Assembly (NCBI RefSeq): GCF_004349065.1
Contig: NZ_SMKZ01000015.1
Location: 1-64,000 of the forward strand
DNA from: Jiangella asiatica
GTDB taxonomy: Bacteria > Actinomycetota > Actinomycetes > Jiangellales > Jiangellaceae
Length of the DNA: 64,000 nucleotides
Direction: 5' to 3'
Position 1 is the stretch's first letter. Each line of letters starts with the position of its first letter. Below, one piece after another: positions 31,983 through 57,579 of the stretch. The position numbers were made by a program, and so were the translations under genes. The notes below the pieces were generated by a model. It was not told where the DNA came from. It saw only the letters and a program-made list of their open reading frames with translations, and did no database searches.

Positions 31983-31993
31983 AGGTCAGACCA
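31983..31993. promoter_or_regulatory. FadR-type GntR operator, site A
   Basis: AGGTCAGACCA contains the perfect odd-centred palindrome GGTC-A-GACC, the core of the E. coli FadR site (TGGTCNGACCA). It lies 14 bases before the suyA-like start codon. Related sites occur before the ABC-transporter unit and the GH59 unit. Confidence 0.65.
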
Positions 31994-32007: not shown

Positions 32008-32310
32008 ATGCCAGAACAACCTCCGGACTTCCTCGCCCACCGGGTCGGTGACTCCGTCGCCGTCGCCGTGCGGAACCTGACCGCGGGACCGGCGCGGGGA
32101 GCCCACCTCGACGACCCCGGCACCATCGAGGTCACGGTCGCCAGCGACGTCCCGCTGGGTCACAAGATCGCGTTGACCGACATCGTCGCCGGCGCCGACG
32201 TCGTCGAGTACGGCGTCCGGATCGGCGTGGCCTCCACCGACATCGCGACGGGCGACTACGTGCACACACACAACCTGAGGAGCGCCAGATGGCACAGCAG
32301 CGTCGCCTGA
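32008..32310 (+). CDS. suyA: (R)-sulfolactate sulfo-lyase small subunit (SuyA-like; UxaA N-terminal/SAF domain)
   Basis: A 100-residue SAF-domain protein matching the N-terminal part of UxaA dehydratases; VPLGHKIALTDI and YVHTHNLRSARW are family signatures. In most altronate dehydratases this part is fused to the large domain; separate small and large subunits are the SuyAB arrangement, which splits 3-sulfolactate into pyruvate and sulfite. ATG at 32008 after GGGATGG. It overlaps the next gene by 22 bases, so the two are coupled. First gene of the ten-gene operon. Alternative: small subunit of a sugar-acid dehydratase. Confidence 0.75.
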   Translation: MPEQPPDFLAHRVGDSVAVAVRNLTAGPARGAHLDDPGTIEVTVASDVPLGHKIALTDIVAGADVVEYGVRIGVASTDIATGDYVHTHNLRSARWHSSVA

Positions 32311-33452
32311 ACGGGTACCGGCGCGAGGACGGTGCCGTCGGCATCCGCAACCACACGGTCGTGATCCCGGTCGACGACCTGTCGAACGCCGCGGCCGAGG
32401 CGGTCGCCGCGGTCGTGCCGGGGGTGCTGGCGCTGCCGCACGCCTACGGTCGGCTGCAGTTCGGGCCGGACCTGGAGCTGACGTTCCGCACCCTGATCGG
32501 CACCGGCAGCAACCCCAACGTCGCCTCGGTGGTGGTCATCGGCATCGAGCCGAACTGGACGGCGCGCGTGGCCGACGGCATCGCCGCCACCGGAAAGAAG
32601 GTCGCGTCGTTCTCCATCGAGGGCAACGGCGACCTGCGCACCATCGAGCAGGCGGCGCGTGCCGCGGCCGGGTTCCTGCAGGACGACTCCGAACGCACCC
32701 GCGAGCCGGTGGAGCGCGGCGAGATCATGATGTCCATCAAGTGCGGGGAGTCCGACACCACCAGCGGCCTGGGCTCCTGTCCCACCACGGCGCAGGCGGT
32801 CGACCGGTGGGTCGACGCCGGCGGGACGGTGCTGTTCGGCGAGACGACGGAGTTGACCGGCGGGGAGCACCTGATCGCCGAGCGGTGCGTGAACGACGAG
32901 GTCAGGAAACGGTTCCAGAACCTCTACGACAGCTACATCGACATCGTGGAGCGGACCGGCGCCAACCTCCTCGGCTCGCAGCCGACGCAGGGCAACATCG
33001 CCGGCGGGCTGTCGACCATCGAGGAGAAGGCGATGGGCAACATCGCCAAGACAGGTACGAAGCCGGTGGTCGGCGCGCTGGCCGCGGCGGAGCAGCCGGC
33101 GTCCGGTCCGGGCCTGTACTTCATGGACACCTCGTCGGCCGCCGCCGAATGCATCACCTTGATGGCCGCCGCCGGTGCCGCGATCCACCTGTTCCCGACC
33201 GGCCAGGGCAACGTCATTGGGCACCCGATCGAGCCGGTCGTCAAGCTCACCGCCAACCCGCACACTGCCGCCACCATGACCGAGCACATCGACCTGGACG
33301 TGTCCGGGCTGCTGCGCCGCGAGTACGACCTGACGACGGCCGGAGACCAGCTGATGGAGGTCATCGACCGGACGGTGAACGGCCGCCTCACCGGCGCGGA
33401 GGTGATAGGGCACCGTGAGTTCTCGCTCACCCGTCTCTACCCGAGTGCGTAG
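32289..33452 (+). CDS. suyB: (R)-sulfolactate sulfo-lyase large subunit (SuyB-like; UxaA family)
   Basis: A 387-residue UxaA-family protein. The stretch around residues 45-80, with LPHAYGRLQFGPDLELTFRT and LIGTGSNPNVASVVVIGIEP, differs from altronate/galactarate dehydratases as I know them and resembles SuyB. IKCGESDTTSGLGSCPT, TIEEKAMGNIAKTG and GLYFMDTSSAAAECITLMAA are further family blocks. With SuyA it would cleave (R)-sulfolactate to pyruvate and sulfite. Two sulfolactate-dehydrogenase-like genes follow in the same operon, strengthening this call. It remains a homology and context inference; assay of sulfite release would settle it. Confidence 0.72.
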   Translation: MAQQRRLNGYRREDGAVGIRNHTVVIPVDDLSNAAAEAVAAVVPGVLALPHAYGRLQFGPDLELTFRTLIGTGSNPNVASVVVIGIEPNWTARVADGIAATGKKVASFSIEGNGDLRTIEQAARAAAGFLQDDSERTREPVERGEIMMSIKCGESDTTSGLGSCPTTAQAVDRWVDAGGTVLFGETTELTGGEHLIAERCVNDEVRKRFQNLYDSYIDIVERTGANLLGSQPTQGNIAGGLSTIEEKAMGNIAKTGTKPVVGALAAAEQPASGPGLYFMDTSSAAAECITLMAAAGAAIHLFPTGQGNVIGHPIEPVVKLTANPHTAATMTEHIDLDVSGLLRREYDLTTAGDQLMEVIDRTVNGRLTGAEVIGHREFSLTRLYPSA

Positions 33453-34881
33453 CGGCACGGCGGTCGCGGCCGACCTGGTCGGCGGGGTGTGGGATCGCCC
33501 CGCCGACACGGTCCCGGTGCTGGATCCGGCGGACGGGAGCCTGGTCGGCGAGGTCGGCCGTAGCGGCGCGGCAGAGGCCACCGCGGCCGCCGATGCCGCC
33601 GCGGCGGCCTTCCCGGCCTGGGCGGAGCTGCCCGCGCGCGGCCGCACCGACCTGCTGCTGCGCGGCGCGGACGCCATCGCCGCCCGCGCCGACGAGCTCG
33701 GCCTGCTGCTCGCACGCGAGGCGGGCAAGCGGTTGCCGGAGGCGGTCGCCGAGATCGGGTTGTCCGCGGAGTACTTCCGCTGGTTCGTCGAGGAGGCTCG
33801 GCGCCCGGCCGGCGCCGTGCATCCGCACGAGGCGGCCGACCGGCGCCACCTCACGCTGCACCGGCCGAGCGGCGTGGCGGCCTGCCTGACGCCGTGGAAC
33901 TTCCCCTGCTCCATCCAGGCCCGCAAGCTCGCCGCCGCGCTAGCCGCCGGCTGCACCGTCGTCGCCCGGGTCTCGGAGAAGGCGCCGCTCGCCGTCACCG
34001 AGCTGATCCGCTGCCTGGTCGACGCCGGCCTGCCGCCCGGCGTGGTCAACCTGGTGCACGGCCCGGCCGCGGAGATCACCGACGCGTACCTGGCGCACCC
34101 GGCGGTGCGCGTCGTGTCGTTCACCGGGTCGACGCCGGTGGGCGCGGCCGTCATGGCGACGGCCTCGCGGCGGATCGTGCGCCCGCTGCTCGAGCTGGGC
34201 GGCAACGCGCCGTTCATCGTCTTCGAGGACGCCGACCTCGACCGAGCGGTCGGCGCGGCGATGCTCGCGAAGTTCCGCAACACCGGGCAGTCGTGCATCG
34301 CGGCCAATCGCTTCCTCGTCCACGACACCGTGCACGACGAGTTCGTCTCGCGGTTCGCCGCGCGCATCGACGCGATGACCGTGGGCGCGGGGACGGCCGA
34401 TCCGGTGCCCGACCTCGGGCCCTGCATCGACGACGACCGCGTGCGGGACGTCGCCCGGCTGGTCGAGGATGCCGTCGAGCGCGGCGGCCGGCTCGCGACC
34501 CGGGCCGCAGACGTACCCGCCGGCGGCGCGTTCCACCCACCGGCGCTCGTGGTCGACGCGCCGGAGGACTGCGAGCTGACCAGCACCGAGGTGTTCGGAC
34601 CGGCCGCCGGCGTGTTCCGGTTCGCGTCCGAGGAGGAAGCGGTGCGCCGGGCGAACGCCACCGAGATGGGCCTGGCCGCGTACGCGTTCACTCGCGACGC
34701 CGACCGGCTGTGGCGGCTGGGCGAACGACTCGAGGCCGGCATCGTCGGCTTCAACCATCCGCTGCCGACCGCCGTGTTCGCCCCGATGGGCGGGGTGAAG
34801 CAGTCCGGCCTCGGCCGCGAGGGCAGCGACCTCGGGCTGGCGGAGTTCCAGGACGTCCACTACGTGGCGGTGGGCCTGTGA
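33415..34881 (+). CDS. Aldehyde dehydrogenase (candidate sulfolactaldehyde dehydrogenase)
   Basis: A 488-residue NAD(P)-dependent aldehyde dehydrogenase with the catalytic glutamate in LELGGNAPF and cysteine in GQSCIAANR. General family GabD/SSADH-like, as are the sulfolactaldehyde dehydrogenases of the sulfo-Entner-Doudoroff pathway. In this operon it would oxidise the three-carbon aldehyde released by the aldolase to sulfolactate. The GTG at 33415 is preceded by GGAGGTGAT at ten bases, which decides the start despite a 38-base overlap with suyB; a GTG at 33445 is less well placed. Confidence 0.82.
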   Translation: MSSRSPVSTRVRSGTAVAADLVGGVWDRPADTVPVLDPADGSLVGEVGRSGAAEATAAADAAAAAFPAWAELPARGRTDLLLRGADAIAARADELGLLLAREAGKRLPEAVAEIGLSAEYFRWFVEEARRPAGAVHPHEAADRRHLTLHRPSGVAACLTPWNFPCSIQARKLAAALAAGCTVVARVSEKAPLAVTELIRCLVDAGLPPGVVNLVHGPAAEITDAYLAHPAVRVVSFTGSTPVGAAVMATASRRIVRPLLELGGNAPFIVFEDADLDRAVGAAMLAKFRNTGQSCIAANRFLVHDTVHDEFVSRFAARIDAMTVGAGTADPVPDLGPCIDDDRVRDVARLVEDAVERGGRLATRAADVPAGGAFHPPALVVDAPEDCELTSTEVFGPAAGVFRFASEEEAVRRANATEMGLAAYAFTRDADRLWRLGERLEAGIVGFNHPLPTAVFAPMGGVKQSGLGREGSDLGLAEFQDVHYVAVGL

Positions 34882-35864
34882 GCGCCGGTGCCACCGACAC
34901 CGCCGAGGCGGAGATCGTCGTGGCCGAGGACGTGTGGGGCGAGCCGTTCGACCGGTTGGCGGCGGCGCGCAAGGTACGCCGCATCGACGGCCTGCCCTGC
35001 GCCGACGACCTCGCCGGAGCCGCCGCGCTGGTGGTCCGCAACCGCACCCAGGTGACCCGCGAGCTGCTGGCGGCGGCGCCCGGGCTGCGGGTGGTCGCCC
35101 GCGCCGGCGTCGGGCTGGACAACATCGACCTGGCCGCGGCCGACGACCTCGGCGTCGTCGTGGTGGCCGCGCTGGGCGCCAACGCGGTGAGCGTCGCCGA
35201 GCACGCCGTCGGACTGGCGCTGGCGGTGGCCCGGCGCATCGTCGAGCTGGACCGGTCGACGCGGGCCGGAGGCTGGCAGCGCCGGCCCGGCCGGGAACTG
35301 GCCGGCGGGGTCTGGGGCCTGCTGTCGGCCGGCGCGACCGCGCGGGCGACCGGGCGGCTGGCCCGCGGCCTCGGCATGTCGGTGCTGGCCAGCGACCCGT
35401 ACTGTGACCCGGCCGACCCGGAGCTGGCCGAGCTCGGCATCGAGCTGCGGACCCTGGAGGACGTGATGGCCGTCGCCGACGTCGTCAGCATTCATCTGCC
35501 CGCGACCACGGAGACCCGCGGCCTGGTCGGCCAGCGGCTGCTCGACCTCGCCAAGCCCGGCGTGATCCTGGTCAACGTCGGCCGGGGCGAGGTGATCGAC
35601 GAGGCGGCACTCGCCCAGGCGCTGCGGGACGGGCGCGTCGCCGGCGCCGGCCTGGACGTGCGCGGCGACGAACCGCCGCGGCCGGGCGAGCTGGAGACGC
35701 TGCCCAACGTCGTGCTCACCCCGCACGTGGCCGGCATCACCGGCGCGTCGCAGGCGCGGATCGCCGAGGTGCTGTGCGCCGGCATCGAGGCCGTGCTCGC
35801 CGGCGGCGCCGCACCGAGCGCCGTCACCCGGTCGGCCCGGTCCACCCGGGTGGTGGCCGCGTGA
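34878..35864 (+). CDS. D-2-hydroxyacid dehydrogenase (candidate (S)-sulfolactate dehydrogenase, SlcC-like)
   Basis: A 328-residue NAD-dependent dehydrogenase of the phosphoglycerate-dehydrogenase family. Catalytic residues are in VNVGRGEVID (Arg), DVRGDEPPRPG (Glu) and TPHVAGIT (His). The nucleotide-binding loop is odd: GLLSAGATAR in place of G-x-x-G-x-G-x-x-G/A-R, so the first glycine of the GxG pair is serine. In sulfolactate degraders, SlcC oxidises (S)-sulfolactate to sulfopyruvate and ComC reduces it to the (R)-form for SuyAB; the next gene is a ComC-family protein. GTGA overlap on both sides. Confidence 0.75.
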   Translation: MSAGATDTAEAEIVVAEDVWGEPFDRLAAARKVRRIDGLPCADDLAGAAALVVRNRTQVTRELLAAAPGLRVVARAGVGLDNIDLAAADDLGVVVVAALGANAVSVAEHAVGLALAVARRIVELDRSTRAGGWQRRPGRELAGGVWGLLSAGATARATGRLARGLGMSVLASDPYCDPADPELAELGIELRTLEDVMAVADVVSIHLPATTETRGLVGQRLLDLAKPGVILVNVGRGEVIDEAALAQALRDGRVAGAGLDVRGDEPPRPGELETLPNVVLTPHVAGITGASQARIAEVLCAGIEAVLAGGAAPSAVTRSARSTRVVAA

Positions 35865-36952
35865 TCGCCGTCGGCACCGCGCGTGACCTCGCCGCCTCGG
35901 CACTGCGCGCCGCGGGCGTACCGGCGGACAAGGCGGACCGGACGGCGCAGCTGCTGGTCACCGCCGACGTGTGGGGCGTGGGCTCGCACGGGCTGATGCG
36001 ACTGCCGCGTTACCTGGCTCGCCTCGCCGCCGGCGGCCTGCGGGCCGACGCCGAGCTCACGGCGGTTCGCACCACCGGTCCGGTCGTCGCGTTCGACGGC
36101 CACGACGGGCTCGGGCACTGGCAGCTGTGGGACGCCGCCGCGGCGGCCGCGGAGCGGGCCGCCCGGTACGGCGTGGCCGCGGCCTCGGTCGGCAACTCGT
36201 CGCACTGCGGTGCCCTCGGCCTCTACACCGCGCCCGCGCTGCGCCGTGGCCTGGTCAGCCTGGTCTTCTCGACCGGCCCCGCGGTGATGGCACCGCCCGG
36301 AACCGCGACGCCGCTGCTGTCCACCAGTCCGCTGGCCGCCGGCGTGCCGGGCGCCGCGACGGGCACCACCCCAGGCAGCCAGTCCGGCGGGCACACGATC
36401 GTCGACCTGGCGACCTCGGCGGTCGCCCGCGGCCGCATCGCCGCGGCCGCCCGCCGCGGCGAGCCGCTGCCCGCGGGCTGGGCAGTCGACACCGACGGCC
36501 TACCGACGACCGACGCCGCGGCGGCGCTGACCGGCATGCTCGCCCCGATGGGCGGCGCCAAGGGGTTCGCGCTGGCCTTCCTCGTCGAGGCGCTGGCCGG
36601 GGCCGCGGTCGGGCCGGCGCTCGCGACCGGCGTGCCGGACATGTTCGACGCCGCCAGCGACACCGAGCCGCAGCGCATCGGCCACCTGGTCATCACGCTG
36701 GACCCCGCGCTCGTCGACGTGGACGGCGGCGGCCCGGACCGGCTGGCGCGGCTGCGCGCGGACGTCACCGCCGCCGGTGGACGGGTGCCCGGCGCGGGCA
36801 AACCGCTGCCGTGGGAGATCGACCCGGACGCGGTCGTCGACATCGCCGACGACGTGATCGCCGAGCTGCGATCCTGGCCGGGCGGCGACACCCACGCTCC
36901 ACCGGACGGGGAGGGCACATGTGGCAGCCTGTCACGCAGCGCGGAAGCCTGA
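35861..36952 (+). CDS. Malate/L-lactate dehydrogenase family protein (candidate ComC, (R)-sulfolactate dehydrogenase)
   Basis: A 363-residue NAD(P)-dependent dehydrogenase of the Ldh2/YlbC/ComC family, unrelated to classical lactate dehydrogenases. The catalytic histidine is in NSSHCGALGLYT; SHGLMRLPRYL and MGGAKGFALAFLVEALAG are family blocks. ComC proteins interconvert sulfopyruvate and (R)-sulfolactate. Paired with the SlcC-like enzyme, it would invert the stereocentre of sulfolactate. Other family members act on malate, ureidoglycolate or ketoacids of amino acids. GTG at 35861 overlaps the previous stop; the last 34 bases overlap the regulator gene. Confidence 0.77.
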   Translation: MIAVGTARDLAASALRAAGVPADKADRTAQLLVTADVWGVGSHGLMRLPRYLARLAAGGLRADAELTAVRTTGPVVAFDGHDGLGHWQLWDAAAAAAERAARYGVAAASVGNSSHCGALGLYTAPALRRGLVSLVFSTGPAVMAPPGTATPLLSTSPLAAGVPGAATGTTPGSQSGGHTIVDLATSAVARGRIAAAARRGEPLPAGWAVDTDGLPTTDAAAALTGMLAPMGGAKGFALAFLVEALAGAAVGPALATGVPDMFDAASDTEPQRIGHLVITLDPALVDVDGGGPDRLARLRADVTAAGGRVPGAGKPLPWEIDPDAVVDIADDVIAELRSWPGGDTHAPPDGEGTCGSLSRSAEA

Positions 36953-37643
36953 CCGAGCGCATCGTCGAGCAGGTCGAGCAGCTCATCCTCGACCAGAGCC
37001 TGCGCCCGGGCGACCGGCTGCCGTCCGAGCGCGAGATGGCCGCGCTGCTCGGCGTCAGCCGCCCGTCCATGCGCGAGGCCGTCCGTATCCTGCAGGCGGG
37101 CGGCCGGTTGACGGTCCGGCACGGGCAGGGCGTGTTCGTGACGACACCGCGCTCCGAGCGTGACCTGCGCGCCCGGCTGGCGAAGGAGGAGATCACCTTC
37201 AACGAGCTCTACGCCATGCGCGAGGTGCTGGAGGTGCCGGCGGCCGGCTGGGCGGCGGAGAAGGCCAGCGACGATCAGCTGGCCTCGCTGCGCGACATCC
37301 TCGGCCGGATGGACGCGCTGCTGGCCACCGGCGAGCCGGACATGGAGCGGCTCGCCCACCTGGACATCGACTTCCACATGGGCATCGCGGCCGCCGCGGG
37401 CAACAGGTTCCTGCAGCAGAGCTCGCACGTCCTCTACGACATCCTCCGCTCGGGCATGCAGACGACGCTGGCCATCCCCGGCCGCACCGAGATCGCCCGG
37501 GCCGACCATGAGCGCATCTGGTCCGGGCTCGCCGGCCGGGACCCCGCCGCCACCCGGCGGGCCGTCCGTGCGCACATCCGCGGCGCGCACGCGGCCGCGC
37601 TGCGCCGTGTCGAGGAGCGCCAGCCCGGAGCACAGGAGGACAC

Positions 37644-37647
<4 letters not shown>
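36919..37647 (+). CDS. GntR regulator, FadR subfamily (in-operon regulator)
   Basis: 242 residues: winged helix-turn-helix (about 8-75, recognition region VSRPSMREAVRILQAGGRL) followed by an all-helical FCD ligand domain with the metal-binding pattern DIDFHMGIAAAAGN and histidines in HERIW and HIRGAH. The family usually represses sugar-acid catabolism and is released by a pathway intermediate. Very similar in layout to the second regulator at 47276-48007 (both begin WQ and share SRPS-REAVRILQA). GGTC-N-GACC palindromes in the cluster fit its FadR-like recognition helix. ATG at 36919 after GGGGAGGG. Confidence 0.88.
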
Positions 37648-38452
<805 letters not shown>

Positions 38453-38456
<4 letters not shown>

Positions 38457-39625
38457 CCGCGACCCGGATCGAGAAGATCGAGACGTTCCAGATCCCGCCC
38501 CGGTGGCTGCTGGTCCGGGTGACGACGGCGGACGGCGCGGCCGGGTGGGGCGAGTGCATCGTGCCGAAGCGGGTCCGGGCCGTCACCGGCGCGGTCGCCG
38601 ACCTGGCCGACAACGTCGTCGGCCGCGACGCGCGGCACATCGAGGACCTCTGGCAGCGCATGTACCGGGGCGGCTTCTTCCGCGGCGGCCCGATCCTCGC
38701 CACCGCCTCGGCCGGCATCGAGCAGGCGCTGTGGGACCTCAAGGCCCGCGCGGTGGGGCTGCCGGTGCACGACTTCCTCGGCGGTGCTGTCCGCGAGCGC
38801 ATCCGCGCCTACGCGTGGGTCGGTGGCGATGCGCCCGCCGACGTGGTCGAGCACGCGCGCGAGCGCGTGGAACAGGGCTTCACCGCGGTCAAGATGAACG
38901 CCACGGCGACCGCGGACCACCTGGACCGGCGCGCCGTCGTCGACGACGTCCTCGGCCGGGTGGGCGCGCTGCGCGACGCGTTCGGCGCGGACCTGGACAT
39001 CGCGCTGGACTTCCACGGCCGAGTGCCGCGCACCGTCGCGAAGATCCTGCTCCGCGAGCTGGAACCGTTCCGGCTGCTGTGGGTCGAGGAGCCGATCACG
39101 CCGGACACCGACGACGCGCTGCGGCACGTCGTCCCGCCGGGCTCGTCGGTGCCGATAGCGACCGGCGAGCGGCTGACATCGCGCTGGCAGGTCAAGGAGC
39201 TGCTGGCCGCGGGCGTGGTCGACATCCTGCAGCCGGACGTCTCGCTGACCGGTCTGTTCGAGCTGGAGAAGATCGCCAGGATGGCCGAGCCGTACGACGT
39301 CGCCGTCGCGCCGCACTGCCCCAACGGGCCGGTGTCGCTGGCCGCGTCCCTGCAGGTCGGGTTCTGCTGTCCGAACGTCGTCATCCAGGAGCAGAGCGGC
39401 GGCATCCACTACCACCAGGGCTACGCCGGGCTGCCGGCCGCGGACCTGTTCGACTACCTGCGCGATCCCGATCCGCTGCGCACGCCCGATGGATACTTCC
39501 GCCATGGCACGGCGCCCGGCCTGGGCATCGACGTCGACGACGACGCCGTCCAGGCCGCGGTGGCACAGTGGCGGCTGCCGGACCCGGACTGGCGGCACGA
39601 CGACGGGCGGTACGCGGAATGGTGA
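38453..39625 (+). CDS. Mandelate racemase/muconate lactonizing family sugar-acid dehydratase
   Basis: A 390-residue enolase-superfamily enzyme. Metal ligands are the Asp of DIALDFHGRV, the Glu of LLWVEEPI and the Glu of ATGERLTS; the base histidines are in DFHGR and APHCPNGP. The D-x-H pattern is that of D-galactonate dehydratase (DgoD). It removes water from a sugar acid to give a 2-keto-3-deoxy acid. In known sulfo-Entner-Doudoroff clusters this step is done by an unrelated IlvD/Edd enzyme, so this would be a non-homologous replacement, or the true substrate is galactonate. Confidence 0.8.
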
Positions 39626-40512
39626 GCTCGAGTGATCTGCACGGCATGCACGTCGCGCTGGCCACGCCGATCGGCGACGACGGCGAACCGGACCCCGCCG
39701 GCCTCGGCCGGCTGCTGGACCGGGTCAGCGACGGCGGCATCGACGCGGTCTGCCCCACCGGATCGACCGGTGAGGGTCCGCGACTCACGGTGGCCCAGCG
39801 CCGCGCCGTGACCGCCGCGGTCCGGGCGCACCTCGGGACCGGCCACCTGGTGCTGTCCGGCGCGTCGGCCATGACCCCGGCCGACGCGGTCGACGAGATC
39901 GCCGGGCTGGCCGCCGCCGGTACGGACGCGGTGCTGCTGGCACCTCCCTCGTACTACCCGATGGCGCCGGCGGAGCTGGTCGCGTGGTACCGCGCGGTGG
40001 CGGGCCGGACGGCGCTGCCGATCGTGCTGTACAACATCCCGGCGATGACGGGGGTCACGCTCGCGCCGCACGCTGTCGCCGAGCTCGCCGGGGTCCCCGG
40101 TGTGGTCGGCATCAAGGACAGCAGCCGCGACCTGGAGTACCTGCAGGAGGTGCTCTACGCGACCAGTGGCGCCGATTTCGCGGTGCTGACGGGCACCGAC
40201 ACCATGCTGCTGGCGTCACTCACCATCGGTGCGGTGGGCGCCATCGCGGCCAGCGCCAACCTGGTGCCGTCTCTGGGTCGGGCGGTCCATGCGGCGTTCG
40301 TGGCCGGAGACGCCGACGAGGCGGCGGCGGCGCAGCGGCGCCTGGTCGACATCGTCACCGCATGCCGGCGCGGTACGACGCCGGCGGGCTGGAAGGCGGC
40401 ATTGGCCTGGGCCGGCGTCTGCTCCGCGAACTTGGTGCCGCCGGCCGCGCCACTGCCGAAGCCGGATCAGGATGCGCTCGGAGCACGGCTGGAGGAGCTC
40501 GGTGTCCGCTGA
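39619..40512 (+). CDS. Dihydrodipicolinate synthase/N-acetylneuraminate lyase family aldolase
   Basis: A 297-residue class I aldolase. Schiff-base lysine in GIKDSSRD, tyrosine in VLYNIPAMTG, and the pyruvate-carboxylate loop PTGSTGEG. Family members cleave 2-keto-3-deoxy acids into pyruvate and an aldehyde. Here it would release pyruvate plus a three-carbon aldehyde (sulfolactaldehyde, or glyceraldehyde if the sugar is not sulfonated). Starts at ATG 39619 or the GTG at 39622, which would give the 4-base overlap usual in this operon. A longer upstream reading in this frame overlaps the dehydratase and is not real. Confidence 0.82.
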   Translation: MVSSSDLHGMHVALATPIGDDGEPDPAGLGRLLDRVSDGGIDAVCPTGSTGEGPRLTVAQRRAVTAAVRAHLGTGHLVLSGASAMTPADAVDEIAGLAAAGTDAVLLAPPSYYPMAPAELVAWYRAVAGRTALPIVLYNIPAMTGVTLAPHAVAELAGVPGVVGIKDSSRDLEYLQEVLYATSGADFAVLTGTDTMLLASLTIGAVGAIAASANLVPSLGRAVHAAFVAGDADEAAAAQRRLVDIVTACRRGTTPAGWKAALAWAGVCSANLVPPAAPLPKPDQDALGARLEELGVR

Positions 40513-41401
40513 TCCGGTCGAGGTCGCGGCGCCGGCCCGGCTCGGCGAGGGGCCGCTGTGGGACCCGGTCCGGGCCCGGCTGATGTGGGTGGACCTGCTC
40601 GCCTCGACCGTTCACGAGTTCGACCCGGCGACGGGTCACGACGCCGTGGTGGAATTCGACCGGCCGGTGGCGGCGCTGGCCCTGCTCTCCGGCGGCGACG
40701 GTTACCTCGTCGCGGCCGGGCTCGAGGTCGCGGTCTGCGCGTGGCCGTCGCCGCGGCTGCGCCCGGTCGCCGGTCTGGACCGAGGTGAGCGCGCGAACGA
40801 CGGCGCCGTCGACCCGGCCGGGCGGTTCGTCGTCGGCACCATGGCCGACGAGGCCACCCCCGGCCAGGCCGCGCTGTACTCCGTCGCAGGCGTGACGGCG
40901 CGGGTCGTGGTCGAGGGCGTGACCATCTCCAACGGCCTGGACTGGAGCCCGGACGGCATGACGATGTACTACGTCGACACGCCCCTTGAACGCGTCGACG
41001 CCTTCGACTACGACATCGCCACCGGTGCGCTGTCCCGCCGGCGGGTCCTCGCCGACCTGCGCGACGTGCCGGGCCGGCCCGACGGGCTGACGGTCGACGC
41101 CGAGGGCGGTGTCTGGGTCGCGATGGCACGTGGCGGTGCCGCGGTGCGGCGCTTCGCCCCGGACGGCCGCGCCGACCACGTCGTCGGCCTGCCGGTGCCC
41201 AACGCGACCAGCGTCGCATTCGGCGGGCCTGACCTCGGTGACCTCTACGTCACCACGTCCCAGCTGCGAATGACCGAGGACGACCTGCGCACGTGGCCGT
41301 CCGCCGGCGCGCTGTTCCGGGTCGACGACCTCGGCGTCACCGGCCGCCCGCCGGTGCCGGCCCGCGTCCCCCTCGACCGTCCCGTCCCCCACTTCCGTTG
41401 A
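40502..41401 (+). CDS. SMP-30/gluconolactonase family lactonase
   Basis: A 299-residue six-bladed beta-propeller lactonase. Metal ligands: Glu in LGEGPLWD, Asn in ISNGLDWSPD and Asp in RPDGLTVDAEG; RANDGAVDPAGR is another family block. It opens the lactone made by the sugar dehydrogenase. GTG at 40502 overlaps the aldolase end. Last gene of the operon; its last seven codons form half of a perfect 22-base hairpin. Confidence 0.86.
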   Translation: MSADPVEVAAPARLGEGPLWDPVRARLMWVDLLASTVHEFDPATGHDAVVEFDRPVAALALLSGGDGYLVAAGLEVAVCAWPSPRLRPVAGLDRGERANDGAVDPAGRFVVGTMADEATPGQAALYSVAGVTARVVVEGVTISNGLDWSPDGMTMYYVDTPLERVDAFDYDIATGALSRRRVLADLRDVPGRPDGLTVDAEGGVWVAMARGGAAVRRFAPDGRADHVVGLPVPNATSVAFGGPDLGDLYVTTSQLRMTEDDLRTWPSAGALFRVDDLGVTGRPPVPARVPLDRPVPHFR

Positions 41402-41431: not shown

Positions 41432-43507
41432 TCAGTCCTCGGCGACGACGCGGATGTCCCAGGCGCTCAGGTGCAGCGGCCGGCCGGGGCCTACCGCGGC
41501 GTCGGCGAACAGGTCGGTTCCCTTCAGCAGGTCGTCCGGGAGCGTGTGCTCGTCGAAGGACCAGTTCGAGACGAACCACAGCCGCCGTCCGTCGCGTGCC
41601 CGGGCACGAGTGACGCGGACCGGCTCGGGGAGCCCCGCGCCCAGCGGCTGGACCCCGGCCGAACGCAGCACCCAGTCGCCGACCGCACGGGCCAGCGCCG
41701 CGTCCGGCAGCGTGCCGACGTACGTGACCCGCCCGGCGCCGTAGGGGTGCGAGGTGACCGCCGGGAACCGCCCGAAGTGCGGATGCGTGTAGCTCGCCAG
41801 CACCTCCGTCGACTCGTCCTCGACGACCAGCTCGTCCATCCAGCCCAGCGCCTGCGCACCGGACGCCACCTCGAACCCAGCACCGTCGCCGGCGACGCCG
41901 ACCGGGGCCGCCAGGTTGGAGTACAGGTTGTAGCCGACGCCGGCCGCCTCGCGAAGCGGTCCCGGTGAGCGGACCCAGCGGGCACGCGCGTACTCGTCGG
42001 CGTACCCGGTGCGGATGGTCAGCACCAGGTGGCCGCCGTCGCGGGCGTAGTGGGCCAGTCCCTCGAGCAGCGCGTCGTCGGCCGAGTACAGCGCCGGTGC
42101 GACGACGACGGGGTACGCCGACACGTCCGCGCCGGCCCGCAGCACGACGGACTGCGCCCGGGCGTCGAAGAAGCCGCGGTAGGTGGTGTCGAAGATGCGC
42201 TCGTAGCTGCGCGGGTCTGGGCCGGCGCCGTCGGCGGTCTTCAGCGGCGGCTGGCACGCCATCGCCCAGCGGCTGTCGTAGGAGTAGAGGAACGCCACCT
42301 CGGCCTCCGGGGTCAGCCCGGTGAGGGTGTCGCCGTGCCGGGCCAGGTCGCGCCCGATGGTCGCCACCTCGTCGTAGTTGCGGTTCGGTTCCAGGTCGTG
42401 GTTGAGGATGCCGTGCGAGTAGATCTCGTGCCCGTAGTGCAGGCTGTGCCAGTGCCAGTAGGCGACCATGTCGGCGCCGCGGGAGATGGTCGAGAACGCC
42501 GCCATCCGCCACTGGCCGTCGTAGCACGGGAACACGTTGTCCGACCCGGCGATGCTGATCGGGTTCATCTCGGTGATGAAGAAGTTGGCCTTCTTGACCC
42601 CGTAGGCCATGTCCGCGCGCTGGTACAGCTGGGCCGGGCCGGTCCCCGTCGTGCGGGCGGGGTACATCGCCAGCCCGTCCACCGGCGGGTGTGCCAGGCC
42701 GTCCTGGGTGGCGTGCGGGAAGTTCTCCGCCACCACGTCCATCACGTCGCCGATGGTGTACCGGTCGGCGTCGGACTTGCCGTGGAAGCCGACGACGTCC
42801 TGGATGACGATCTGGTCCGCGCGGGCGTACTCGCGCACGATACCGACCTGCCAGGTCAGGAACTCCGTCGTCATGGCCGCCTGGAACCGCCGCCACTCGA
42901 GGTCGTAGCCGGGGCTGGTGTTGCCGGCCGGCGCCCACAGGTCGGCCCAGTCGCCCAGCCGGTGCGACCAGTACGTCAGCCCCCACAGCTCGTTGACACG
43001 ATCGACCGAGCCGTACGTCCGCTTGAGATGCTCGACGAACGCATCGACGACGGCGCGGTTCTGCGCGCCCGCGGTGCCGGTCTCGTTGTCCACCTGGAAC
43101 CCGATGATGCTCGGGTGCTGGGCGTAGCGCTCGAGCAGCAGCCGGGTGATCCGCTCGGCGTAGTGCCGGTAGGTCGGGTTGGTGACGTCGAAGTTCTGCC
43201 GCGCGCCGTACGGGATGGGGCGGCCGTCGCCGCGCACGGCCATGACCTCGGGGTACCGGCGGTGCAGCCACGGCGGGATCGCGTACGTCGGCGTCGTCAG
43301 GATGACCTTGATGCCGGCGGCGTGCAGCGCGTCCAGGACCCGCTCCAGCCACTCGATGTCGAACGCGCCCTCGGCCGGTTCGCACAGCGACCAGATCGAG
43401 TCGCCGATCCGGGCGTAGTCGATGCCGGCCTCGGCCATCATGCGCACGTCGTCGTCGAGGCGGTCGAACGGCTGGTACTCGAAGTAGTAGGACACGCCGT
43501 AGAGCAC
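41432..43507 (-). CDS. GH42-family beta-galactosidase
   Basis: A 691-residue cytoplasmic (no signal peptide) glycosidase. TIM barrel with the acid/base in VDNETGT (about Glu142) and nucleophile in ITEMNP (about Glu313), then a trimerisation domain (GATase-like, about 400-600) and a small C-terminal beta domain. GH42 enzymes hydrolyse terminal beta-D-galactosides and sometimes alpha-L-arabinopyranosides. GTG at 43507 follows AAGGAGAG; the open frame further upstream overlaps the permease genes and is not used. Last gene of the transporter operon, so it probably acts on the imported oligosaccharide or glycoside. Confidence 0.9.
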   Translation of the reverse strand: MLYGVSYYFEYQPFDRLDDDVRMMAEAGIDYARIGDSIWSLCEPAEGAFDIEWLERVLDALHAAGIKVILTTPTYAIPPWLHRRYPEVMAVRGDGRPIPYGARQNFDVTNPTYRHYAERITRLLLERYAQHPSIIGFQVDNETGTAGAQNRAVVDAFVEHLKRTYGSVDRVNELWGLTYWSHRLGDWADLWAPAGNTSPGYDLEWRRFQAAMTTEFLTWQVGIVREYARADQIVIQDVVGFHGKSDADRYTIGDVMDVVAENFPHATQDGLAHPPVDGLAMYPARTTGTGPAQLYQRADMAYGVKKANFFITEMNPISIAGSDNVFPCYDGQWRMAAFSTISRGADMVAYWHWHSLHYGHEIYSHGILNHDLEPNRNYDEVATIGRDLARHGDTLTGLTPEAEVAFLYSYDSRWAMACQPPLKTADGAGPDPRSYERIFDTTYRGFFDARAQSVVLRAGADVSAYPVVVAPALYSADDALLEGLAHYARDGGHLVLTIRTGYADEYARARWVRSPGPLREAAGVGYNLYSNLAAPVGVAGDGAGFEVASGAQALGWMDELVVEDESTEVLASYTHPHFGRFPAVTSHPYGAGRVTYVGTLPDAALARAVGDWVLRSAGVQPLGAGLPEPVRVTRARARDGRRLWFVSNWSFDEHTLPDDLLKGTDLFADAAVGPGRPLHLSAWDIRVVAED

Positions 43508-43557
43508 GAGGTTTCTCTCCTTCGCAGGTGGACGGTTCGGCCGCTGGGCGGTGCCGG

Positions 43558-44475
43558 TCAGCCGCGGACGGCGCCGGCGACGCCCTCGACGAAGTAGCGC
43601 TGCAGCGCCAGGAAGACCAGCACGATCGGCAGCAGTGCGATGGTCGACGCCGCGGCCATGCCGGACCAGTCGGTCATGTTCTCGCCCTGGAACGAGTAGA
43701 CGCCGACGGCGAGCGTGCGCAGCTCCGGCCGTGGCAGCGTGAGCACCAGCGGGATCAGGAAGCTGTTCCACACCCTCATCAGCGAGAGGATGATCGCGGT
43801 CGCGATGGCCGGCTTGGTCAGCGGGAGCATGACCTTCCAGAAGATGCGCAGGAAGCCGGCGCCGTCGATGCGAGCCGCCTCGTCCAGCTCGTTCGGCAGC
43901 TGCCGGAAGTACCCGGCGAACAGCATGATCTGGATGACGTGCGCGCCGCCGGACTCGGCCAGGATGATGCCCCACAGCGACCCCGACAGCCCGAGCTGGT
44001 TGATCAGGTCGAACACCGGGATGATCGTGTAGCCCTCGGGCAGGAACAGCGTGGCGATCAACACCACCACGAGGACCTTCTTGCCCGGGAACGTGTACCG
44101 CCCGATGACGTAGCCGATCATCGCGGTGGTGATGGTGACGACCGCGATGGTGAACGCCGTGATGAAGATCGTGTTCCAGAAGTACGGGCCGATGTTCGCC
44201 TCGTACCAGGCCCGCGAGTAGTTTTCCCACTGCGGTTGTTCCGGCAGGACGCTGACGCTGCCGAAGATCTCGGTGTCGGTCTTCAGGGAGGCGCCGACCA
44301 TCCACAGGAACGGGTAGATCCAGATCAGGCAGATCGGCAGCAGGACGATGCTGACGATGATCTCGCGCCGCCAACTGCGCCAGCCGCGGTGCTTCCTCGG
44401 CTTGGTCCCCGCCGGCTGCTGGCGACCGGCGCGCGCGGGCGCGGCCTGGCCGGACACCGTCGTCGGGACACTCAT
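43558..44475 (-). CDS. Carbohydrate ABC transporter permease (MalG type)
   Basis: A 305-residue inner-membrane permease with six hydrophobic segments and the EAA loop ELDEAARIDGAGFLRIFWKV that contacts the ATPase. The basic N-terminal tail (about 35 residues) is cytoplasmic. No ATPase is encoded in the cluster; such systems usually share a general MsiK-type ATPase in actinobacteria. ATG at 44475 overlaps the stop of the upstream permease by four bases. Confidence 0.9.
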   Translation of the reverse strand: MSVPTTVSGQAAPARAGRQQPAGTKPRKHRGWRSWRREIIVSIVLLPICLIWIYPFLWMVGASLKTDTEIFGSVSVLPEQPQWENYSRAWYEANIGPYFWNTIFITAFTIAVVTITTAMIGYVIGRYTFPGKKVLVVVLIATLFLPEGYTIIPVFDLINQLGLSGSLWGIILAESGGAHVIQIMLFAGYFRQLPNELDEAARIDGAGFLRIFWKVMLPLTKPAIATAIILSLMRVWNSFLIPLVLTLPRPELRTLAVGVYSFQGENMTDWSGMAAASTIALLPIVLVFLALQRYFVEGVAGAVRG

Positions 44476-45458
44476 GCCTGCCCTCCCTGCTTGACGTCGC
44501 GCTGCAAGGCCGACGCCCGGCGCAGGCCCCACGCCTGCGCGAGCGTGAACACCAGGACGGTGATGCCGAAGAAGACGGCGACGGCGGAGGCGTAGCCCAG
44601 CCGCGGGGTGCTCCCGGAGGCGAAGGCCAGCCGGTAGATGTAGAGCTCGACCAGCTCGGTCGCGAACGCCGGCCCGCCGGAGGTCATCGCCTGCACGAGC
44701 GGAAACGTCTGCAGCGCGCCGACGAACGTGATGAGGACGATGACGATGCCGAACGGCATGATCAGCGGGATGGTGACGTCGCGGTGCATCCGCCAGCGCG
44801 ACGCGCCGTCGACGCGGGCCGCCTCGTACAGCTCCTGCGGTACCGTCTGCAGCGCCACCAGCCAGTAGATCATCGACATGCCCATCCACTTCCAGACGAA
44901 CACTCCGGAGACCGACCAGAGCGCGAGGTCGGGGTCACCGAGGAAGTCGATGGGCCGGTCGATGATGCCGATGTCGAGCAGCACCGCGTTCAGCGGGCCG
45001 TCGAACGGGTTCATGATCAACGACATGACGACGCCGACGATCGCCGTCGTCGTCACCACGGGCAGGAAGAACATGGTGCGGAAGACGGTGCGCATCCGCA
45101 GCGAGGTGTCGTTGAGCACCAGCGCCGCGAGCAGCGCCAGCGTCAGCATCACCGGGACGGTGACGAAGGTGAACGCGAACGTGCGCCCGAACGATCCCCA
45201 GAACGCCGAGTCGGCGACCGCCTCGCTGTAGTTGTCCAGCCCCACGAAGTGGCGGTCGGAGTCCAGCCCGGACCAGTCGAGGAACGAGATGTACCACGAC
45301 GCGATCATCGGGTAGAGCGTGAACAGCGTCCCGAGGATCACCGAGGGCAGCATGAACGCGTAGCACCAGCGCGCGTTCCACAGTCGTTGCCGCAGCGTGC
45401 CGGCGTCGCCGCCACGGCGGGCGTCGGCCAGCTGCCGGGCCGGTCGGATGATGGCCAT
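44472..45458 (-). CDS. Carbohydrate ABC transporter permease (MalF type)
   Basis: A 328-residue permease with six hydrophobic segments; EAA loop ELYEAARVDGASRWRMHRDV. Pairs with the downstream MalG-type permease. ATG at 45458 lies 12 bases after the binding-protein stop, so SBP, MalF-type, MalG-type and GH42 form one transcript. Confidence 0.9.
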   Translation of the reverse strand: MAIIRPARQLADARRGGDAGTLRQRLWNARWCYAFMLPSVILGTLFTLYPMIASWYISFLDWSGLDSDRHFVGLDNYSEAVADSAFWGSFGRTFAFTFVTVPVMLTLALLAALVLNDTSLRMRTVFRTMFFLPVVTTTAIVGVVMSLIMNPFDGPLNAVLLDIGIIDRPIDFLGDPDLALWSVSGVFVWKWMGMSMIYWLVALQTVPQELYEAARVDGASRWRMHRDVTIPLIMPFGIVIVLITFVGALQTFPLVQAMTSGGPAFATELVELYIYRLAFASGSTPRLGYASAVAVFFGITVLVFTLAQAWGLRRASALQRDVKQGGQA

Positions 45459-45470
45459 GCGTCTCCCCGC

Positions 45471-47072
45471 TCAGCGGCCCGCGTAGTCCTCGGTCGTGTA
45501 GTCCCGGGTGGGGTCCCAGTTGGAAAACACCCAGTCCTGCCGGGTCGCGGTGCTGCCGTCGCGGGTGGTGGCCTCCTGGATGGCGGCGTCGCGAGCCCGC
45601 TCGTGCCGGTCCTTCAGGTCGGTGAGCGCGGCACGGATGTCGGTGACCTCGCCGACCAGGATGCTCTGGATCACCTCGCCGAAGTTCGGGCTGGGCGCCA
45701 CCTCGCGCTGGGCGACCAACGCCACGTCCGGGTTGACGATGGCCGGCTGCGGCAGCGCGGTCATGGTGTCCGCCAGGTCGAGGCAGGCGCGTGCCTGCTC
45801 GCTGTAGTCCGCGGCGCTGGCCTCGCGCGCCTCGTCGTGCATGGGCGGGTTGCCGACGCCGGTGATCTCGCCCCAGCGGGTCTGCCCGTTCAACGACGTG
45901 ACATAGGCGAGGACGTGGCCGGCCACCTCCTTGACCTGACTGGTGGCCGACATCACCAGGGCGTCCGCGCCGAACGGGATGTAGCCGACGGGGAGCGGGT
46001 CGCCACCGCCCGGGGTGGGCAGCGCACCGACGCCGAACTCGAAGTCGGGGTTCTCGTTCTCCCACTGGACGGTGACCCACGGGCCGGCGAAGACCATGCC
46101 GGCGTTGCCGCGGACGACGCGCGGCCAGCACTCCGGCGCCGTCAGCGAGTTGGAGCCGGGGAACAGGCTGCCGTCGCTCTGGACGGCCAGCAACAGCTCG
46201 ATGGCCTCGACGATCTCGTCGCCGGTGTGGATGAACTCGCCGGAGGGCTGCAGGATGTTGCCGGTGGCGGGCAGCCCGGCGATGCGGGCCATGTACTCGA
46301 CCCACATCGAGAGCCGGCCGGGCTGGTTGATCTCGAGGATCAGCCCGTACGCCTGCCCGTCGCCGGCCTCGGTGACCTTGCGCGCGGCCTCCCGGAACGT
46401 GTCCCAGGTGAGCGGCTCGCTCTGAGGGTCGAAGCCGGCGTCGTTGACCAGCTGCTTGTTGTAGTGAACCGCCTGCTGATAGCGCTGGTCGGTGGCCAAC
46501 GGCACCTGGTACAGCAGACCGTCGAAGACCTGCACGCCCTCGACTTGCAGGGTGTCCGGAAGTGCACCGCGCCACTGCTCGACGTCGGGGATGAACTCGT
46601 CCAGCGGGCTCACCCAGCCCTCGGACACCGCCTGCGCCAACGTGATCGAGCCGGGCAGCTGGATGAGGTCGTGACCCGACCCGTTGCGGAAGCCCAGCGG
46701 CACGACCTCCTCGATGCGGTTCCACGGCAGCCCGTCGTACTGGCAGGTGACGTTCTCGAACTTGGCCTGGTAGGCCTCGAAGAACGCCTCCCAGTAGGGC
46801 GCCTTGGTGTCGTTGCTGTCCACGAGCCGGAACGTGACGTCACCGGTCGGGAAGCCGCTGGGTGCGTCCGGGATGTCGAACTCGGGACCGTCACCGCCGC
46901 TGCCGCCGCCACTGGTGCCACCGCTGCTGTCACCGAATCCGCCGCCACAGCCGGCCAGGGCGGCAGCCACGCCGAGGCCGGCGCTCGCGGTCAGGAACGA
47001 CCGCCGAGTGAGCCGGGCCTGTGCCTGGCGACCGAGCCGAGCCTGAGCGGAGAGGGAACGCCGCACTGTCAT
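45471..47072 (-). CDS. Carbohydrate ABC transporter substrate-binding lipoprotein
   Basis: A 533-residue extracellular solute-binding protein (family 1). The N-terminus has a twin-arginine motif, TRRSFLTAS (Arg23-Arg24), and a lipobox with the acylated cysteine at 42 (ALAGC), so it is probably exported folded by Tat and lipid-anchored. A glycine/serine linker follows (about 43-62). At over 530 residues it is larger than the usual 420-450. ATG at 47072 with GAAAGGTAGG upstream. The promoter region carries FadR-type operator sites B and C. Confidence 0.9.
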   Translation of the reverse strand: MTVRRSLSAQARLGRQAQARLTRRSFLTASAGLGVAAALAGCGGGFGDSSGGTSGGGSGGDGPEFDIPDAPSGFPTGDVTFRLVDSNDTKAPYWEAFFEAYQAKFENVTCQYDGLPWNRIEEVVPLGFRNGSGHDLIQLPGSITLAQAVSEGWVSPLDEFIPDVEQWRGALPDTLQVEGVQVFDGLLYQVPLATDQRYQQAVHYNKQLVNDAGFDPQSEPLTWDTFREAARKVTEAGDGQAYGLILEINQPGRLSMWVEYMARIAGLPATGNILQPSGEFIHTGDEIVEAIELLLAVQSDGSLFPGSNSLTAPECWPRVVRGNAGMVFAGPWVTVQWENENPDFEFGVGALPTPGGGDPLPVGYIPFGADALVMSATSQVKEVAGHVLAYVTSLNGQTRWGEITGVGNPPMHDEAREASAADYSEQARACLDLADTMTALPQPAIVNPDVALVAQREVAPSPNFGEVIQSILVGEVTDIRAALTDLKDRHERARDAAIQEATTRDGSTATRQDWVFSNWDPTRDYTTEDYAGR

Positions 47073-47127: not shown

Positions 47128-47138
47128 AGGTTAGACCC
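47128..47138. promoter_or_regulatory. FadR-type GntR operator, site B (imperfect)
   Basis: AGGTTAGACCC holds GGTTAGACC, one mismatch from GGTC-N-GACC. On the minus strand it follows a TTGACC (-35-like, 47152-47157) by about 17 bases, so it would overlap the -10 region of the binding-protein gene. Confidence 0.5.
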
Positions 47139-47188
47139 CCGATCTCGGCAGGGTCAATGGAGGAGAAGGGGTTTCTTCCGATCCTGCG

Positions 47189-47199
47189 AGGTCAGACCG
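47189..47199. promoter_or_regulatory. FadR-type GntR operator, site C
   Basis: AGGTCAGACCG contains the perfect core GGTC-A-GACC at 47190-47198. It lies 61 bases centre to centre from site B, about six helical turns, between the end of the second GntR gene and the transporter operon. Confidence 0.6.
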
Positions 47200-48007: not shown

Positions 48008-48067
48008 CCGCAGCCACCTCCATCGACGCAGACAGCATAGACGCGTCACCACGTCCGCAGCCCGGAA

Positions 48068-52103: not shown

Positions 52104-52114
52104 AGGTCTGACCT
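52104..52114. promoter_or_regulatory. FadR-type GntR operator, site D
   Basis: AGGTCTGACCT is an 11-base perfect odd-centred palindrome with the same GGTC-N-GACC core, 36-46 bases before the GH59 start codon. A weaker GGTCCGACA lies at 52091-52099. Nothing else convincing is seen in the 273-base gap to the next gene. Confidence 0.65.
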
Positions 52115-56487: not shown

Positions 56488-56548
56488 CCGGCTCCAGTCG
56501 CGATCACGCCGCCCAGTCTTCCAGTGCCGCCGGTGTGGTTCGATGGCG

Positions 56549-57502: not shown

Positions 57503-57579
57503 GAGGTCTCCTCGCTGATGTTTGGTGGAGACCAGCGTAAAACGATGTGCCATGTCCCTGTCTGGCCGGGTCCGTCCAG

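Follow-up and report, generated by a model that had tools for sequence, protein, structure and literature searches.

A ten-gene operon of Jiangella asiatica predicted to catabolize a galacto-configured 6-sulfosugar, most likely sulfofucose

Introduction

A sulfofucolytic Entner–Doudoroff (ED) pathway coupled to a sulfolactate sulfolyase was described in 2025 in Paracoccus wurundjeri Merri (PMC12421959). According to the sections of that report on which we draw, sulfofucose is documented in Fucaceae algae and one archaeon only, Sinorhizobium mexicanum ITTG R7 is one sulfofucose candidate (Fig. 6 and discussion of that report), and neither a sulfolactaldehyde (SLA) dehydrogenase nor a candidate sulfofucosidase was identified in P. 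wurundjeri. Sulfo-ED clusters with a PF00920 dehydratase have already been noted in several Actinobacteria and Ensifer has been named as a possible complete mineralizer of sulfoquinovose (PMC10599462), and SuyAB occurs within sulfo-transaldolase (sulfo-TAL) clusters of Thermotogae and Chloroflexi (PMC9594981). Here we analyse a ten-gene operon in the first 64,000 nucleotides (the window) of the 135.5 kb contig NZ_SMKZ01000015.1 of Jiangella asiatica, whose whole genome measures 7.03 Mb, and describe its gene content and order, the clades to which its proteins belong, its conservation together with neighbouring genes and a shared promoter motif. We propose, with a probability of roughly 0.7, that this operon provides the complete catabolism of a 6-sulfosugar of galacto configuration, for which sulfofucose (6-deoxy-6-sulfo-D-galactose) is the most likely identity.

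Results

Gene content of the operon

Ten open reading frames (ORFs) on the plus strand span 32008–41401. ORF and Pfam analyses confirmed the ten families of the original prediction, namely SAF (A, SuyA), GD_AH_second + GD_AH_C (B, SuyB), Aldedh (C, aldehyde dehydrogenase, ALDH), 2-Hacid_dh (D, SlcC), Ldh_2 (E, ComC), GntR+FCD (F, GntR), short-chain dehydrogenase/reductase (G, SDR), MR_MLE (H, dehydratase), DHDPS (I, aldolase) and SGL/SMP-30 (J, lactonase), and the letters are used for the genes below. As called, the ORFs overlap at 9/9 junctions, with gaps of −22, −38, −4, −4, −34, −4, −4, −4 and −11 bases. The start codon of the ALDH gene is uncertain, and the SuyB/ALDH junction therefore perhaps overlaps less or not at all.

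The sulfolactate half

The original prediction had proposed phylogeny against UxaA and GarD as a check of the SuyAB-like pair. In a tree of 37 rows, the 27 SuyB rows, including that of the window but no biochemically tested SuyB, formed one clade with 100/100 support, and E. coli UxaA, E. coli GarD and eight actinobacterial UxaA-like rows fell outside it, so that the grouping with altronate/galactarate dehydratases that would have refuted the prediction was not seen. The identities were similarly divided. Among the best 40 of 316 plasmid records, SuyB was 82–83% identical to Rhodococcus proteins, 60% to that of S. mexicanum and 56–59% to other alpha- and betaproteobacterial ones, while the remaining records reached at most 39%. 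In 393 genomes of the class, where scoring was limited to four candidates per genome and could have missed some, the values were either 70–100% (23 genomes, one partial) or at most 35%, and the 11 other genus members had no match above 33%.

SuyA and SuyB are encoded by separate ORFs, as for the heteromeric SuyAB, which is reported as the sole heteromer of the superfamily's four functional enzymes; another heteromeric member has been inferred from gene context, so that split subunits are not unique to SuyAB (PMC6336799). In the best 80 of 588 confirmed SuyB loci, some of them on short stretches, a SuyA match was found near SuyB in 78, a ComC-like protein in 48 and an SlcC-like protein in 34, and SuyAB-SlcC-ComC clusters without a sugar half were common. 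Two alphaproteobacterial plasmid records have HpsN/O/P-type and UPF0324-type exporter genes adjoining SuyB, and HpsN/O/P beside SuyAB is the setting of loci for dihydroxypropanesulfonate (DHPS) and sulfolactate (PMC9594981). The top NCBIfam match of the ComC-like protein of the operon was L-sulfolactate dehydrogenase (177 bits, under the cut-off of 500).

The ALDH gene sits between those of SuyB and SlcC. Only two of 3395 matching plasmid records reached 60% identity to ALDH, the Rhodococcus SuyAB cluster and, as second-best match (62%), an Arthrobacter cluster with TauE; the S. mexicanum cluster also has an ALDH (45%). The operon ALDH is a resident candidate for the SLA dehydrogenase that PMC12421959 did not identify in Paracoccus.

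The sugar half

The dehydratase belongs to the enolase superfamily (PF13378/PF02746) by Pfam and matched the NCBIfam galactonate dehydratase with 500 bits (cut-off 311), and Pfam found no PF00920 dehydratase among the ten proteins. Its best plasmid match was S. mexicanum ITTG R7 (62.8%); the dehydratase of the Arthrobacter cluster was 61% identical. The S. mexicanum locus of ~22 kb is unannotated in its record; as read here, it contains a glycoside hydrolase (GH) of family GH2, ATP-binding cassette (ABC) genes, ALDH, aldose epimerase, dehydratase, SDR, HpcH/HpaI aldolase, SMP-30, SuyA, SuyB, UPF0324, SlcC and ComC.

At E ≤ 1e-130, the dehydratase was found in 3/393 class genomes (J. asiatica, G164 and G019), each with a SuyB of at least 79% identity within ~12 kb, and in 1/396 phylum genomes, that of J. 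asiatica. At E ≤ 1e-85 it matched 65/393 class genomes, where all but the operon genes of these three were at most 53% identical; ten of the 11 other genus members had only such matches (≤53%) and one had none. J. asiatica itself carries a second, ordinary galactonate dehydratase (DgoD) beside an SDR elsewhere on the contig (C32:73572-74711). In a tree of 33 rows, the proteins of the window, G164, G019, S. mexicanum and Arthrobacter were separated with 100/100 support from 28 DgoD rows (E. coli DgoD and the 27 remaining of 30 loci returned at E ≤ 1e-85). K39, F76, W210, N291 and a GLP insertion occur in 5/5 operon-type dehydratases and 0/28 DgoD, and 5/5 members of the clade have sulfonate genes in the same cluster. 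K39 comes after the WGE strand, at the expected place of the capping loop of the superfamily, and its position makes it a plausible reader of the C6 sulfonate.

The SDR and the lactonase were 53% and 35% identical to their S. mexicanum counterparts. The aldolase is a PF00701 (DHDPS-type) protein, versus PF03328 in the S. mexicanum locus; its best plasmid match was the Arthrobacter cluster (47%), with the next at 36% among the 12 matches listed. It may work like SfcE, but would be no orthologous member of the sulfofucolytic ED pathway at that step. On the Arthrobacter plasmid, SDR, dehydratase, DHDPS and SMP-30 genes stand in the order of the window, in a cluster that also has TauE and genes resembling those of the sulfo-Embden–Meyerhof–Parnas (sulfo-EMP) pathway.

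Conservation and the neighbouring module

In G019, the genes A-B-C-D-E-G-H-I-J keep the same order with an ABC set upstream, and in G164 the order is A-F, ABC set, G, ATPase, H-I-J, with sulfo-EMP-like genes upstream. This recurrence argues that the arrangement is not due to chance.

A minus-strand module past the operon consists of GH59, UPF0324, GntR2 (a second GntR regulator), solute-binding protein (SBP), two permease and GH42 genes (Table 1). G164 has the same GH59-to-GH42 series ~5 kb from its operon, with peptidase and hydrolase genes between. In G090, of the same family, contig C20 carries the GH59 tail, UPF0324, GntR2, SBP, both permeases and GH42, then the lactonase and aldolase tail to tail, like the window; the front part of the operon is on another contig, and the dehydratase is cut by the contig end. 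Among 22 genomes of the family, the sugar half was present in four (J. asiatica, G164, G090 and G019), GH59 of at least 69% identity in the same four and GH42 of at least 80% in three (J. asiatica, G164 and G090). The Fisher P values for association with the sugar half, which ignore shared ancestry, were 1.4e-4 for GH59 and 2.6e-3 for GH42.

The ABC importer linked to the operon consists of the SBP and two permeases at 43558-47072; an ABC ATPase was not found in the window cluster, and one is present in the operons of G164 and G090. UPF0324 and TauE proteins had been noted nearby, and both were located, PF03601 in the module and TauE at 55765-56487 (−). Since no TauE match was found in the 60 kb G164 stretch searched and the gene is placed with a DUF4862/MFS pair, TauE was dropped as a part of the system. 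The order at 55765-58920 (−) is TauE/SafE, DUF4862 protein and major facilitator superfamily (MFS) transporter, and no link to the operon was found.

The closest PDB entry to the GH42 protein is 5xb7 (348 bits, next 224), which we take to be an alpha-L-arabinopyranosidase. In BiBga42A, Trp326 and His369 bind O6 of the sugar, while Arg121 and Glu366 bind O4; the first two are reported as conserved among GH42 beta-galactosidases of solved structure (PMC10688820). Counted on alignments, with the nucleophile and Glu366 as reference points, the window GH42 keeps the O4 residues; the His369 position is Ser in 3/3 operon-linked copies and Trp in 6/6 family relatives, and no Trp stands at the 326 position. 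The C6-substituent pocket is thus changed, which alone does not reveal what binds there. Alignment of GH59 with galactocerebrosidase showed that it keeps the Asn-Glu and the second Glu, presumably the catalytic residues. The shared palindromic motif described below and the conservation in two related genomes make GH59 and GH42 candidate sulfofucosidases.

A shared operator-like motif

At 15 bp upstream of suyA is the palindrome AGGTCAGACC, and related sites precede the SBP gene (two) and GH59. The pattern GGTYNRACC, drawn from these window promoter sites, has seven sites in the window, four of them in 390 bp of three promoters versus 0.018 expected from the rest. In G164, whose sites had no part in tuning the motif, although the promoters were listed with the hits already in view, 4/15 sites are in four promoters versus 0.07 expected (P ~1e-6). 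AGGTCWGACC gave 18 strand-hits in the J. asiatica genome versus 11 for the reversed-pattern control, and three of its sites are in this 20 kb. The SBP promoter of G019 carries AGGTTAGACCT. The two GntR proteins of the window are clear paralogues, and we propose that the operon and the GH59/GH42/ABC/exporter module may share control by the same regulator family and operator.

Table 1. Features of the operon and the adjoining module (window coordinates)
Feature	Position	Strand	Basis or remark
Palindromic operator-like site AGGTCAGACCA	31983..31993	+	just before suyA; same site, same place in G164 and G090
SuyA-like subunit, SAF domain, 100 amino acids (aa)	32008..32310	+	Pfam
SuyB-like subunit, 387 aa, predicted (R)-sulfolactate sulfo-lyase with SuyA	32289..33452	+	Pfam, identity, tree
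Aldehyde dehydrogenase, predicted SLA dehydrogenase, GabD/SlaB type	33415..34881	+	Pfam, NCBIfam, plasmid matches
D-2-hydroxyacid dehydrogenase, predicted SlcC ((S)-sulfolactate dehydrogenase)	34878..35864	+	Pfam, SuyAB-adjacent homologues
Ldh2-family dehydrogenase, predicted ComC ((R)-sulfolactate dehydrogenase)	35861..36952	+	Pfam, NCBIfam
GntR/FCD regulator	36919..37647	+	Pfam
SDR, predicted sulfofucose dehydrogenase (SfcH role)	37644..38456	+	Pfam, homologues
Enolase-superfamily dehydratase, predicted sulfogalactonate dehydratase (SfcF role)	38453..39625	+	Pfam, NCBIfam, tree
DHDPS-family aldolase, predicted 2-keto-3-deoxysulfogalactonate aldolase (SfcE role, other family)	39622..40512	+	Pfam
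SMP-30/gluconolactonase, predicted sulfogalactonolactone lactonase (SfcD role)	40502..41401	+	Pfam, homologues
GH42 glycosidase, candidate intracellular sulfofucosidase	41432..43510	-	alignments, conservation
ABC sugar permease	43558..44475	-	domain scan
ABC sugar permease	44472..45458	-	domain scan
ABC solute-binding protein (SBP)	45471..47072	-	domain scan
Two operator-like sites, 47128-47138 and 47189-47199	47128..47199	-	before SBP gene
Second GntR/FCD regulator (GntR2), paralogue of 36919-37647	47276..48052	-	domain scan, comparison
PF03601 (UPF0324) protein, predicted sulfite exporter	48068..49099	-	GTG start overlaps GH59 stop
GH59 galactocerebrosidase-like, signal-peptide-like N terminus (by eye), candidate secreted sulfofucosidase	49096..52068	-	domains, alignment
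Operator-like site	52104..52114	-	before GH59

Other clusters and proteins

The Arthrobacter locus mentioned above (Arthrobacter sp. YA7-1 plasmid pYA7-1a, 7984-19209) comprises an ABC importer, SDR, SfcF-clade dehydratase, DHDPS, SMP-30, PfkB, aldolase, GabD-type ALDH and TauE. The plasmid was typed as conjugative, and it possibly carries a mobile sulfofucose plus sulfoquinovose pathway ending in sulfolactate export. Within ~21 kb of G164 C1:376001-436000 (L105, L014, L104), the operon of sulfofucose type is accompanied by genes for a GH116-type protein and for a kinase and an aldolase that resemble those of sulfo-EMP, which suggests one genome handling both sulfohexoses. Two short actinobacterial SuyAB contigs, L039 (SDR 54%, DHDPS 44%, ALDH 59%) and L037 (enolase-type 50%), are possible further sulfosugar variants.

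A different set of SuyAB clusters was seen in small actinobacterial genomes of the freshwater acI/Nanopelagicales kind. In L034 (IMCC19121, CP015605.1, 498-14102; the same stretch as L021), the one in which domains were checked, the genes encode a Fucose_iso_C-like isomerase, SBP, permeases, GntR, PfkB, DeoC/LacD aldolase, SuyA, SuyB, SlcC, ComC and PF03601, and L018, L019, L020, L022/L028, L023, L029, L030, L032, L033 and L035 are similar. Sulfo-EMP plus SuyAB, that is, complete sulfoquinovose mineralization, is a possible reading of these clusters. Against it, these loci gave no ALDH match, L018, L019, L021/L034, L022/L028, L029 and L033 alone matched the aldolase query, and L035 had neither a kinase nor an aldolase match. 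A search of the open-licence literature for sulfoquinovose in Nanopelagicales, acI or freshwater found no report of such clusters.

Apart from these, the window encodes at 20061-29456 (−) a protein of 3131 aa that combines a subtilase domain with 12 carboxypeptidase-regulatory-like stretches and PQQ-type repeats.

Discussion

That both halves of a pathway from a C6 sulfosugar to sulfite lie in one operon, as originally predicted, is supported at the level of sequence, with SuyB inside the SuyAB clade. Enzyme activities, transport roles, substrate and regulation are predictions in the following scheme, where the (R)/(S) assignments follow PMC12421959. The putatively secreted GH59, the ABC importer and GH42 would release and import the sulfosugar. 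The SDR would oxidize sulfofucose to sulfogalactonolactone, the SMP-30 protein would open the lactone, the enolase-superfamily enzyme would dehydrate the resulting sulfogalactonate, and the DHDPS-family aldolase would cleave the dehydration product to pyruvate and (S)-sulfolactaldehyde. ALDH would convert the latter to (S)-sulfolactate, which SlcC and ComC would invert via sulfopyruvate to (R)-sulfolactate. SuyAB would then eliminate sulfite, leaving a second pyruvate, and the sulfite would exit through the UPF0324 protein.

We tentatively extend this scheme, with less than even confidence: GH59 and GH42 would be dedicated sulfofucosidases, the first of their kind, and would belong with the importer, the exporter UPF0324 and the ten genes of the operon to a single regulon governed by the two paralogous GntR proteins. 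This regulon would serve growth on a glycolipid or glycoside with beta-linked sulfofucose, which is so far not known to be used by bacteria.

Several observations weigh against the sulfofucose operon or its proposed regulon. The published sulfofucose locus compared by sequence was that of S. mexicanum, itself just a candidate; the identity of the lactonase to its S. mexicanum counterpart is low and the family of the aldolase differs from that of SfcE. For SLA dehydrogenase, an Arg pair and Trp-Asn-Phe have been proposed as substrate-binding residues, alongside the catalytic Cys/Glu (PMC10599462); ALDH has them (counted on alignments), but the aligned succinate-semialdehyde dehydrogenases have them likewise, so they do not discriminate. 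The G090 contig has no ALDH, and SlcC directly follows SuyB there. Two Cys columns shared by E. coli UxaA and GarD are Cys in 0/27 SuyB rows and 7/10 outgroup rows, and since both are also absent in 3/10 outgroup rows, their absence gives weak support. G019 has an operon without GH42 of the window type, its GH59 is on another contig without a UPF0324 gene there, and its suyA site is degenerate. The operator motif was derived from the window promoters themselves, and the looser pattern TGGTCNGACCA with ≤2 mismatches was found 32 times in the window versus 36.7 expected, not above chance, so that the tighter motif and its position alone are informative.

Among other explanations, sulfoquinovose, the C4 epimer, could be the substrate of a sulfo-ED operon with SuyAB attached. 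This sugar is far more abundant than sulfofucose (PMC12890257, PMC12421959), and sulfo-EMP-like genes adjoin the G164 operon and accompany genes G-J on the Arthrobacter plasmid. However, the sulfo-ED dehydratase is a PF00920 protein (PMC12421959, PMC10599462), a family with no match among the ten operon proteins, and because the operon dehydratase is instead galactonate-dehydratase-like and the neighbouring GH42 and GH59 are galactosidase families, we prefer sulfofucose and consider sulfoquinovose unlikely. It is likewise rather improbable that two independent pathways share the operon, De Ley–Doudoroff degradation of galactose (G-J) and degradation of sulfolactate (A-E), as might be imagined for plant thylakoid lipids, with galactose of galactolipids obtained via GH59/GH42 and sulfolactate coming from outside. 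The NCBIfam name of the dehydratase, well above its cut-off, the adjoining GH42, GH59 and sugar ABC importer and the frequent SuyAB-SlcC-ComC clusters without a sugar half would agree with this, but an ordinary DgoD stands beside an SDR elsewhere in the genome, and the operon dehydratase falls outside the DgoD clade and has fixed substitutions and an insertion in common with a published sulfofucose candidate. Nor was a sulfo-EMP aldolase/kinase pair found that could feed ALDH without the sugar half: the J. asiatica genome gave one 42% match to the aldolase (C112), with no PfkB match in 40 kb around and before that aldolase match, the kinase not being sought genome-wide. Both a sulfo-EMP supply of the lower half and a plain galactose operon were rejected on these grounds.

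The galactose or sugar-acid pathway with UxaA, which the original prediction had set against its own view, is disfavoured because ordinary DgoD is encoded elsewhere and the operon dehydratase belongs to a distinct sulfonate-linked clade, and also by the SuyB tree. Although Pfam and NCBIfam name the A-B pair galactarate/altronate dehydratase, the tree, the identity gap, the split subunits and the gene neighbourhood favour SuyAB; a UxaA/GarD-type enzyme was rejected on these four lines and is very improbable. Still less credible is a sulfate ester, galactose 6-sulfate, from which SuyAB-like chemistry would eliminate sulfate: galacto-type enzymes are nearby, but a neighbourhood of SuyAB, SlcC, ComC and UPF0324 is what C-sulfonate loci show, and no sulfatase was found among the window proteins scanned, which cover part of the ORFs.

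If sulfofucose is indeed the substrate, a single cell would return both its carbon and its sulfur, and actinobacteria would meet this sugar often enough to retain a dedicated regulon. No report of an actinobacterial sulfofucose operon was found in the open-licence literature, nor any report on sulfofucosidase, sulfogalactonate or sulfofucoside besides PMC12421959; sulfofucose as such was mentioned in five papers there.

Among known systems, a tandem pathway of this kind already exists, as the same chain of steps is described in P. wurundjeri (PMC12421959). The two share the families of SDR, SGL/SMP-30 lactonase, enolase-superfamily dehydratase, SlcC, ComC, SuyA and SuyB and a linked ABC importer. 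The operon differs in being actinobacterial rather than proteobacterial, in forming a single overlapping unit, in having an ALDH where the sections of the P. wurundjeri report used here identify no SLA dehydrogenase, and in its DHDPS aldolase versus PF03328 (HpcH/HpaI); it also adds GH59 and GH42 as candidates for glycoside release. The sulfo-ED pathway of Pseudomonas putida SQ1 reportedly stops at sulfolactate. It resembles the operon in its SDR, SMP-30-type lactonase, aldehyde dehydrogenase and ED logic (PMC12421959, PMC12890257), and differs in its PF00920 dehydratase and PF03328 aldolase. The sulfo-EMP clusters of Arthrobacter AK01/AK04 and relatives likewise have an actinobacterial GabD-type SLA dehydrogenase, but use kinase/aldolase chemistry and excrete sulfolactate, and SuyAB is not mentioned in the sections of that report considered (PMC8873060). 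A plasmid-borne C3-sulfonate cluster of Rhodococcus koreensis has homologous GntR, SuyA, SuyB, ALDH, SlcC and ComC (49-83%) without the sugar half. Within the literature searched, the new elements are the actinobacterial single-operon version, the candidate SLA dehydrogenase, the DHDPS-type aldolase and the GH59-to-GH42 module with its shared motif. The locus thereby offers candidates for both gaps of the P. wurundjeri system (PMC12421959), the SLA dehydrogenase and the sulfofucosidase, from another phylum and with one operon that can be cloned whole.

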